Shown: positions 37,373 to 41,356 of the stretch, piece by piece
How positions within the stretch are numbered: the stretch's first letter is position 1
Layout: each line of letters opens with the position of its first letter
Assembly (NCBI RefSeq): GCF_000016165.1
Contig: NC_009253.1
Span: forward strand, 1,584,332 to 1,648,331
Source of the DNA: Desulforamulus reducens MI-1
GTDB taxonomy: Bacteria; Bacillota; Desulfotomaculia; Desulfotomaculales; Desulfotomaculaceae
Length of the DNA stretch: 64,000 bases
Direction: 5' to 3'
Notes under the pieces: generated by a model
Database searches by the model: none
What the model saw: only the letters and a program-made list of their open reading frames with translations
What the model was told of the DNA's origin: nothing
Made by a program: the position numbers and the translations under genes

Positions 37373-37486
37373 TTAGAATAAGAAACAGCAGCAACAAATA
37401 ATTAGCAGGAAAAGCAGGAAGAACAGAAAGCAACCCACAAGAGGGAGCCAGGAGCAACCCCTCAAGGCTTCAATATTAACAGACAT
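37373..37486 (-). CDS. 37-aa hydrophobic Cys-rich peptide
   Basis: ATG 37486 with an AGGGTGG ribosome site; MSVNIEALRGCSWLPLVG, then a single hydrophobic helix rich in Phe and Leu and a CCCC cluster near the C-terminus. Resembles the small hydrophobic sporulation peptides of the YjcZ type in size and style, but with cysteines. It follows the ferritin-like/coat-like gene by 34 bp and probably shares its transcript. Coding potential is inferred from the ribosome site and composition only. Confidence 0.5.
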   Translation of the reverse strand: MSVNIEALRGCSWLPLVGCFLFFLLFLLIICCCCFLF

Positions 37487-37520
37487 ATTATAACCACCCT
37501 TTCTGTTTGATTCCTTTGTT

Positions 37521-38126
37521 TTAGTAGGGTTTAGCATAAGCACAGTTGTTAAGGGTAAATAAGTAATTCCATTTGCTGCTGTGCTTTAATTCATCGGTAT
37601 AAATTTCGGTAATCATATTTCTATAAGGTAGGAACTCAAGACCATATAAAATTTTTCGATATCTTTCCACTGCAGCCAGTTCCCCAAATAGGGCACTGGT
37701 TATTCCTTCGCAGTAACTTTGGGGAGGTTGGAAGGTATTGTTCTGGGCAGGTGGTATCTCCTGTCCGGTTAATTCCCAATACAACTCCCGCAGCATTTTG
37801 TTGTGCTTGATTTCGTCATCTCGAATGGAAGCTACAATGTCTTTTTGTCCAGCCGGGGCAATGCTTACCATATAGTTGTAAAACAATTCATCTTCTCTTT
37901 CACCACTTACAGATTCTACGATTAATCTTAGGGACTCTGGATAGGCATACTGAGCTACATACATATAAGTAGGATGATATTTATAGTTCACACAGGGGTA
38001 TCCTGGATAGGGTGTCTGTAACGGGTTAGTACCAGGTCCGCAGGAAGGGCAAAAATTGTTCACGGCATTGGTTTGCACTGGTTCAGTTTCTTGGTTGGTT
38101 GTTTTATCCTTTGGGTTATCGGCCAT
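37521..38126 (-). CDS. Ferritin-like protein, probable spore coat component
   Basis: 201 aa. An N-terminal Pro/Tyr/Cys-rich segment (NNFCPSCGPGTNPLQTPYPG) and then a ferritin-like four-helix region with two ExxH motifs: DDEIKHNKM and TDELKHSSKW, plus GELAAVERYRKIL. These can form a dinuclear metal site. Such proteins with a Cys/Pro/Tyr-rich head are commonly found in spore coats of Peptococcaceae. GGAGTG ribosome site. Exact function unknown. Confidence 0.7.
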   Translation of the reverse strand: MADNPKDKTTNQETEPVQTNAVNNFCPSCGPGTNPLQTPYPGYPCVNYKYHPTYMYVAQYAYPESLRLIVESVSGEREDELFYNYMVSIAPAGQKDIVASIRDDEIKHNKMLRELYWELTGQEIPPAQNNTFQPPQSYCEGITSALFGELAAVERYRKILYGLEFLPYRNMITEIYTDELKHSSKWNYLFTLNNCAYAKPY

Positions 38127-39768: not shown

Positions 39769-40095
39769 TTATATTCTTTTTGCGTCTTTGTTTTTGTAGA
39801 ATACTTCCACAGTACAGTTGCATTTGTATCCATAGCATTCTTTGTACTTGTTTTTCTTGTCGTAAGAACCCTTAGAGCCACAGGGCTTGTGGTGTTTCTT
39901 GTCATAGGAACCTTTAGAACCACAGGACTTGTGGTATCTATTACTATTAGAACAACAGGAACCTTTAGAATCATCTGATTCGTTACAATCACCGCAGGTG
40001 TGCCATGGATTGCATTTCATAAACATTTTCATGAGTCCCTGAACATTTTTTTCGTGCAGTAATTTTCTAAGTTCGCTCTTATCCATATCCCGCAT
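39769..40095 (-). CDS. CotG-like repeat protein (Cys/Lys/Ser/Tyr-rich), probable CotH substrate
   Basis: 108 aa. After a helical start (MDKSELRKLLHEKNVQGLMK) the protein becomes rich in Cys, Lys, Ser, Tyr and His, and contains an exact ten-residue repeat, CGSKGSYDKK, at 58-67 and 72-81. The SYxKK-type units resemble the phosphorylated repeats of Bacillus CotG. It is divergent from a cotH gene, the same arrangement as cotG/cotH in Bacillus. AAGGAGTG ribosome site. By analogy it would be a coat protein phosphorylated by CotH; that is inference. Confidence 0.6.
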   Translation of the reverse strand: MRDMDKSELRKLLHEKNVQGLMKMFMKCNPWHTCGDCNESDDSKGSCCSNSNRYHKSCGSKGSYDKKHHKPCGSKGSYDKKNKYKECYGYKCNCTVEVFYKNKDAKRI

Positions 40096-40122
40096 AAGAA
40101 CACTCCTTTTTGAAGATTTCCT

Positions 40123-40149
40123 ACATATAGGTTAATACACCATATGGTA
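40123..40149 (+). promoter_or_regulatory. Sigma-K-like promoter of cotH
   Basis: AC (40123-40124), 16-bp spacer, CATATGGTA (40141-40149), matching the Bacillus sigma-K pattern AC-N16-CATANNNTA. 112 bp upstream of the cotH start. Supports mother-cell, late-sporulation expression. Confidence 0.5.
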
Positions 40150-40261
40150 TATTAAGGAAAAATGTTCCAAAACTATCAAAATGTATATTTTATGCGTAAC
40201 ATTCCATTTAACCCTTTTATAACATAATAATAAAAGGATATCGAAAGGAAGGGTTACCAAT

Positions 40262-41356
40262 ATGGAAAACAACGGGCGAAATATACCGTCCTATTCTTTG
40301 TTTATTAACCCCAGGGATCTTCGGGAGCTTCGCAGTGATATATGGAACAATGAGCATGTTCCGGCTCAACTTAAAATAAGTAACACATCCTATCAAGTTG
40401 AGATAGCCTATCGAGGGGCCCTTACCCGTGAATTACCGAAGAAATCATACCACCTCAAGTTTATAAAACCCGAGACCTTTGCTGGTGGGCGGGAAATTCA
40501 TTTAAATGCTGAGTATCTTGATCCATCGCTAATGCGCAATAAACTTTCATTCGATTTCTTTAAAAGTTTAGGTACACTGAGCCCAGAGGCCAAATATGTT
40601 TTACTTTTGTTAAATGGTACGTTTATGGGTGTATTCCTTCAACTGGAATCTGTGGATGATTTGCTTATAAAAAAGAGGGGTCTGCCAGCTGGGGCTATTT
40701 TTTATGCTCACAATCATGATGCGAACTTTTCCTTGCTAGCCCCTGATACCGATGATGTTAAGGATTCCCTTATGGATGGTTATAAACGAAAGGTTGGTAC
40801 TAAGTCAGATGATGGATATCTTTGTGAACTCATTTATAAAATCAACACGGTTTCCCGTGAAGATTTTGGCAAAGAGATTGTGAAGTATGTTGATATTGGG
40901 AAATATCTGCGATGGTTAATAGGGGTGGTATGTACACAAAACTATGATGGCTTTATTCAAAACTATGCCCTGTATCGTAACTCTGATAACGGCTTGTTTG
41001 AAATGATCCCCTGGGATTATGATGGAACTTGGGGACGTGATTGTTATGGAAAGATTATGGAATACAACTATATCCCTATTCGGGGTGCCAATACTCTAAC
41101 CGCTCGAATAATGGATGTTCCTTATTTTCGGCATCAGTACCGGCTAATGTTTGAGGAAACCATAGAGACACTCTTCATCCCCGAGGTTCTTGAACCCCAG
41201 GTTACCGCCCTTTATAATGTGCTTCGTCCCCATATTAACCTTGATCCTTATAAACAAAAATCTCTTAGAAAGTTTGATGCAGAACCTGAGTATATTCTCC
41301 AATTTATTAAGAAACGGAACAAATTTTTAAAGGATCAATTATTGGAATTGGTATGA
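40262..41356 (+). CDS. cotH: CotH-family spore coat protein kinase
   Basis: 364 aa. CotH proteins are atypical kinases that phosphorylate coat proteins such as CotB and CotG on serine. Family motifs: ELPKKSYHLKF (ATP-binding Lys region), MRNKLSFDFFKS, FMGVFLQLESVDD and MIPWDYDGTWGRD (metal-binding Asp). GGAAGGG ribosome site. The neighbouring divergent gene encodes a CotG-like repeat protein, a plausible substrate. The following 41357-41639 has no gene. Confidence 0.9.
   Translation: MENNGRNIPSYSLFINPRDLRELRSDIWNNEHVPAQLKISNTSYQVEIAYRGALTRELPKKSYHLKFIKPETFAGGREIHLNAEYLDPSLMRNKLSFDFFKSLGTLSPEAKYVLLLLNGTFMGVFLQLESVDDLLIKKRGLPAGAIFYAHNHDANFSLLAPDTDDVKDSLMDGYKRKVGTKSDDGYLCELIYKINTVSREDFGKEIVKYVDIGKYLRWLIGVVCTQNYDGFIQNYALYRNSDNGLFEMIPWDYDGTWGRDCYGKIMEYNYIPIRGANTLTARIMDVPYFRHQYRLMFEETIETLFIPEVLEPQVTALYNVLRPHINLDPYKQKSLRKFDAEPEYILQFIKKRNKFLKDQLLELV

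Follow-up and report, generated by a model that had tools for sequence, protein, structure and literature searches.

A divergent gene pair in the window (the whole 64,000-nucleotide stretch of Desulforamulus reducens MI-1 analyzed here) is a real and well-supported CotG/CotH-type pair outside the Bacilli. We put at about 75% the probability that its two genes act together in spore-coat phosphorylation in the manner of CotG and CotH, one encoding the kinase and the other its substrate. In the literature searched, the CotG/CotH module is described from Bacilli, where it patterns the outer coat; here it occurs in the Desulfotomaculales, where the substrate is divergent and rich in Cys, and also, as a separate occurrence, in family f21, which we take to be the Desulfitobacterium/Desulfosporosinus family. 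These pairs supply natural minimal substrates (108 to 114 amino acids [aa]) and make two questions directly testable: how CotH chooses its substrate, and whether kinase and substrate travel as a pair between lineages whose coats are otherwise built differently.

The kinase gene and its small divergent partner

The open reading frame (ORF) at positions 40262 to 41356 (plus strand), cotH, is predicted to encode a complete CotH kinase of the short, spore-coat form (364 aa), with both key aspartates kept. PF08757 matches across the whole domain (327 bits, E = 2e-97, profile positions 1 to 322 of 322), the solved CotH structure 5jd9 matches at 401.9 bits, and the gene is the sole PF08757 match of its genome (one contig of 3,608,104 bases). 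Residues D229 (codon at 40946 to 40948, plus strand) and D252 (41015 to 41017, plus strand), the equivalents of Bacillus subtilis D228 and D251, are invariant in all 14 aligned short CotHs; the B. subtilis mutants D228Q and D251A are described as inactive (PMC7821199). The full CotH kinase proposed in the initial annotation is thereby borne out.

On the opposite strand, separated from the cotH start by a 166-bp intergenic region, lies a cotG-like gene (39769 to 40095, minus strand) for a 108-aa protein, the proposed CotH substrate, preceded by an AAGGAG ribosome-binding site (40103 to 40108, minus strand; 7 nt before the ATG). Its conserved N-terminal module (about residues 6 to 33; codons at 39997 to 40080, minus strand), which the initial annotation had missed, is modeled by AlphaFold2 (6 sequences) as two helices, residues 6 to 14 and 18 to 28 (pLDDT of about 75 to 85); pLDDT falls below 50 from residue 33 onward. 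The 73-residue tail holds 10 Ser and only two repeats, CGSKGSYDKKHHKP (39883 to 39924, minus strand) and CGSKGSYDKKNKYK (39841 to 39882, minus strand), which in DNA form a 42-nt unit (86% identical) and in protein one of 14 residues. Both exact copies of CGSKGSYDKK, on which the annotation had remarked, are present (at residues 58 and 72) and are longer than any repeat in 20,000 shuffles of the protein, where the longest exact repeat was at most 7 residues; the protein is also as Cys-rich as claimed (10 of 108 residues).

What the two proteins might do is suggested by B. subtilis, whose CotH is reported to phosphorylate Ser in the repeats of CotG and CotB (PMC7821199) and whose CotG, when unphosphorylated, is described as aggregating and failing to assemble (PMC7821199; PMC9765600). 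By analogy, the mother cell would make the CotH kinase late in sporulation, and the small modular substrate would be made from a sigma-K-type promoter on the opposite strand. The N-terminal helical module would be the constant part of that substrate, and the serines that accept phosphate (in the GS and SY of CGSKGSYDKK) would lie in the disordered tail, which in this anaerobe also bears cysteines. Window CotH would phosphorylate this tail, whereupon the protein could join the coat, like CotG in Bacillus. The portion available of the D. reducens surfaceome paper (PMC4137172) contains no occurrence of cotH.

Distribution of the pair and its relation to CotG

With window CotH as query (E of 0.001), 18 of 113 genomes of the order match, but the short form occurs in only five (window included; identity of at least 69%), namely four of the nine genomes of the genus plus Pelotomaculum; two of these, G051 and G095, are Desulforamulus aeronauticus and Pelotomaculum propionicicum, as judged by CotH sequences identical to those in named loci. 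In all five, the gene divergent from cotH, at the place equivalent to that of the window gene, encodes the common N-terminal module followed by Ser/Lys/Gly repeats; Cys also occurs in the repeats of most of the five, those of Pelotomaculum lacking it. The initial annotation had proposed a survey of this position in relatives, treating unrelated genes there as evidence against its proposal of a CotG-like gene and cotH arranged divergently, as in Bacillus; a related gene was found in five of five, and the layout stands. Its description of the substrate as much shorter holds for the window and for Pelotomaculum (114 aa from the ATG) but not for congeners G051 (296 aa) and G053 (285 aa); the G058 gene ends at a contig end. 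Ser plus Thr make up 20% (L003), 25% (L005), and 35% (L006) of the least complex 40 residues (range given, 18 to 35%), and the tails are Ser-rich in the partners of congeners and Pelotomaculum.

A profile of the window-group N terminus recovers, among the 113 genomes, the five pair genomes and G030 (E of 2.7e-13 or better), with one weak match (E of 0.07) in the remainder. Built without the window row, it still finds the window ORF at E of 5.7e-10, the next ORF outside the group being at 0.41. G030 contains an orphan CotG-like gene (L141, contig 10, 46000 to 48995; also L024) that keeps the module and the promoter element and whose repeats are DHK, without Ser up to the contig end; the genome, rated 100% complete, yields no CotH match. 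A SipL/SPOCS-domain gene lies near the orphan, as in G051.

Named genomes, when scanned, yielded 64 CotH loci, and loci from further genomes were added to these. After removal of 12 duplicate loci before counting, removal of L129 (a copy of the L128 place), and transfer of L033 to the short set, the final set comprised 90 short-CotH loci and a further 27, of which 25 encode long proteins (530 to 763 aa) and two are the fragments L019 and L127. A profile of the Bacilli module (27 columns, grown from 12 hand-picked Bacilli N termini) marks a divergent ORF in 61 of the 90 short loci, and the window-group profile adds seven; by both profiles, then, a divergent partner accompanies 68 of 90 short CotHs versus 0 of the 27 others. 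Across 4,754 ORFs, the sole match elsewhere lies downstream of cotH, in locus L111. Since most of the 61 loci fed the Bacilli profile, the fair test is provided by eight held-out anaerobe loci: all three f21 loci are found (E of 1.4e-7 to 7e-5), and none of the five loci from the window's order is reached, even at E of 10. Use of the Bacilli-only profile to prove that the window protein is homologous was accordingly rejected, since this profile does not reach it.

Partner tails vary greatly, from SHKKSFCS (L093), RTTRR (L032), and SSGSSG (L041) to SKGSKGS (L050) and GTGKGTGK (L130). Neither profile identifies a partner in 22 of the 90 short-CotH loci. Eight of these nonetheless have a low-complexity divergent ORF (L057, L060, L073, L082, L085, L095, L114, and L121), the upstream gene in L096 to L098 is presumably CotB-like, and nothing recognizable as a partner appears in the remaining loci without a profile match. 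A loose low-complexity criterion gives 77 of 90 loci, a rough figure in which L033, L038, L083, and L099 look spurious by eye. The motif CATANNNTA occurs 2008 times genome-wide, versus 2127 for the pattern read backwards; because its counts are no higher than those of the reversed pattern, motif presence alone was not used.

The setting of several long CotH-like proteins (L100 to L106 and L108) is unlike that of the short CotHs: each of their genes follows, at a distance of 13 to 56 bp, a same-strand gene for a conserved membrane protein, itself preceded by a further conserved gene. The repeat gene divergent from cotH is truncated by a contig end in many loci (L028/L004, L029, L030, L044, L045, L051, L061, L063, L065, L066, L070, L072, L078, L084, and L123), so automatic annotation of draft genomes will often miss or cut the substrate. 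The repeat tails of L005 and L042 match NCBIfam models for a collagen-like adhesin and HxsA4 by composition, HxsA4 above its cut-off, and such matches are likely to lead to the misnaming of CotG-like proteins.

The NCBIfam model NF047410 (CotG_ExsB_Nterm, 26 positions) is the Bacilli module: its cut-off is passed by L109 and by L093, presumably CotG itself, both with the partner gene at the equivalent place divergent from cotH, and is just missed by L032. The window protein is not listed at E of 0.1, and the cut-off is passed in 0 of the 113 genomes of the order. Scored with an ungapped matrix against 5000 shuffles, the window protein is equaled by 4 shuffles, and Pelotomaculum and Aneurinibacillus L030 by none; five other members do not stand out (equaled by 250 to 856 of 5000 shuffles), four of them having a one-residue insertion that shifts the register. 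A single profile-profile comparison of the window-group and Bacilli modules gives a probability of 89 (E of 2.2e-6). Given the NF047410 miss and the weaker homology evidence, the best reading from sequence is that the window protein works like CotG, rather than that it can be placed within the CotG/ExsB family.

Set beside B. subtilis CotG/CotH (with CotB), the window shares a CotH with both key aspartates and a divergent partner that is rich in repeats, bears Ser and Lys, and carries a short module at its N terminus. The window partner differs from B. subtilis CotG in its length of 108 aa, its two 14-residue Cys-rich repeats, and its score below the CotG/ExsB model; the intergenic region is short (166 bp), and CotE finds no match in any of the nine genomes of the genus (with B. 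subtilis rings as the control). According to PMC3533761, in the portion available, no CotE was seen in clostridia. A search for a CotB-like protein, run without a positive control, was empty. ExsB of the Bacillus cereus group, described as a CotG homologue with Thr repeats (PMC7821199), resembles the window pair as a CotH-linked modular coat protein, and L032, with RTT repeats, lies just short of the CotG/ExsB cut-off; by its description, ExsB differs in having Thr instead of Ser repeats and another tail.

Among further relatives, Aneurinibacillus L029 and L030 have the closest CotHs outside the order (61.3 and 59.7% identity) and divergent partners with a similar MRxM/L..E..FM N terminus, but the tails differ (TGRRS and HSKGRH, each truncated at a contig end). 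In the f21 loci (L094, L130, and L131), which represent a family outside the Bacillales, a short CotH is likewise paired with a divergent gene for a module plus repeats, but the repeats are GTGK and contain Thr, and the CotH is placed elsewhere in the tree.

Origins and competing explanations

Because long branches met in a first tree that included long CotHs, 10 rows (six long CotHs plus L083, L085, L095, and L096) were left out of the clade test, leaving 45 short CotHs. In this tree the five Desulfotomaculales rows, which span two families, make up a single clade (support of 99/97) that groups with Aneurinibacillus and Tumebacillus at 89/96, less than the customary 95. A separate clade of the three f21 CotHs is nested in a group that also holds L121 and L122 (100/99), both from the order of G416, which we take to be Bacillales because L093, our presumed CotG, occurs there. 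Forcing the eight anaerobe CotHs, a group fixed before any tree was built, into one clade costs 60 log units and is rejected (AU p = 9e-6). Module similarity follows CotH identity across 32 thinned loci (Mantel r of 0.54; 0 of 5000 permutations), a pattern that joint transfer of kinase and substrate would produce.

Two tree positions and a patchy distribution point to at least two entries into such anaerobes, and the sequences suggest that CotG/CotH-type pairs entered anaerobes more than once rather than by ancient inheritance. The Desulfotomaculales probably acquired kinase and substrate jointly, in relation to an Aneurinibacillus/Tumebacillus-like lineage, with the direction of transfer being our reading of the tree; an Aneurinibacillus-only profile fails to reach the window group (E of about 1.2 for two members), which counts against a close tie with Aneurinibacillus. 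The initial annotation had instead suggested that the pair may be an ancient coat module. On such a view, the last ancestor shared by the Bacilli and the Clostridia-like lineages would have had it, with vertical descent since then and loss in most anaerobes. A single Desulfotomaculales clade over two families would suit that history, as would a placement near Aneurinibacillus/Tumebacillus at merely 89/96 with the deep root unsettled, but the pair is present in only 5 of 113 genomes of the order, the one-clade arrangement of the eight anaerobe rows is rejected, and the f21 rows nest with L121 and L122, so that we consider ancient inheritance unlikely.

Several findings count against the kinase-substrate reading itself: a module without a CotH match in G030, only two repeats and 10 Ser in the window tail, the 22 loci in which neither profile identifies a partner, and the failure of both the Bacilli-only profile and NF047410 to reach the window protein. 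A Cys/Lys-rich structural or metal-binding coat protein that merely shares the promoter region, and is no CotH substrate, would account for the 10 Cys, for a Ser content that is low beside that of Bacilli partners, and for the G030 repeats, Ser-less up to the contig end in a genome with no CotH match; such a protein is improbable in view of the Ser-rich tails in congeners and Pelotomaculum, the strict short-cotH linkage (68 of 90 loci), and a module that tracks CotH. It is more doubtful still that the window gene is the decaying remnant of a longer repeat gene: the frame is intact, the ribosome-binding site, conserved promoter element, and module are all present, and the Pelotomaculum protein is similarly short, even if the longer proteins of congeners and the presence of just two repeats would be in keeping with decay.

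Within the favored reading, that of a CotH kinase and its CotG-like substrate, a further idea can be put forward tentatively. Since the module persists although the genus yields no CotE match, and since its similarity tracks CotH, it may bind CotH itself; it would then be a docking element for CotH on the linked substrate, with kinase and substrate moving between lineages as a cassette and tail composition left free. We hold this to be possible rather than probable. It accords with the fact that the sole module-bearing genome of the order without a CotH match (G030) has repeats that lack Ser to the contig end, and the same occurrence of a module without CotH counts against it, as do the few repeats in the window. 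If docking were true, one kinase could serve very different coats through nearly any Ser/Thr-bearing tail.

Promoters and neighboring genes

The initial annotation had assigned to cotH a sigma-K-like promoter, AC-N16-CATATGGTA (40123 to 40149, plus strand). The string is present, but it is exact in the window only, has one mismatch in L005, and is absent from the other three loci; with 2 occurrences in the window versus 2.13 expected, its frequency is that of chance, and the string alone therefore means little. It is part of a near-palindrome readable on both strands, and its minus-strand form, AC-N16/17-CATAnnnTG, lies 41 to 46 nt before the cotG-like start codon in five of five loci. In the window, this is AC-N17-CATATGGTG (40138 to 40165, minus strand; one mismatch), and G030, which has no CotH match, keeps AC-N16-CATATTATG, which precedes the start by 40 nt (as counted by eye). 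The near-palindrome is thus better read, on sequence grounds, as a candidate promoter of the cotG-like gene than as that of cotH.

For cotH, we prefer as candidate promoter a TATAnCAT block found 33 to 35 nt before the ATG in all five loci (three distances counted by eye), with AC at N17 in three; in the window it forms AC-N17-TATAACATA (40199 to 40226, plus strand), one mismatch from the sigma-K consensus. In B. subtilis, the cotH promoter is reported to map >800 bp upstream (PMC4130616).

Among 64 intergenic regions, the exact pattern (spacer of 15 to 17) occurs toward the cotG-like gene in 11, versus 0.7 expected, and toward cotH in 2, versus 1.1 expected; in 100 Markov resamplings of these regions, the largest exact counts were 4 and 5, respectively. 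With one mismatch allowed, the counts are 29 versus 11.2 expected toward the cotG-like gene and 35 versus 17.2 toward cotH, so a weaker signal toward cotH appears to exist as well, part of it coming from the palindrome. Expression under sigma-K would be consistent with the one-mismatch consensus at a fixed distance in five of five loci and with a sigK gene, in two pieces, in the genome, all of this being sequence evidence.

The sigK pieces lie outside the window (G000:C1:972499-972855 and 1051434-1051757; L139 and L140), on one strand and about 78.6 kb apart, and cover model positions 108 to 226 and 6 to 115; a large serine recombinase adjoins the 3′ piece. This arrangement is that of a skin-type element. 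Within the genus, sigK is in two pieces in six of nine genomes and intact in three. Elsewhere in the window, a gene at 37521 to 38126 (minus strand) encodes a ferritin-like protein (Rubrerythrin family, E of 2.4e-5) with a Cys/Pro-rich N terminus and is followed by a 56-aa ORF (37373 to 37543, minus strand) that has a Leu/Phe/Cys run at its end.
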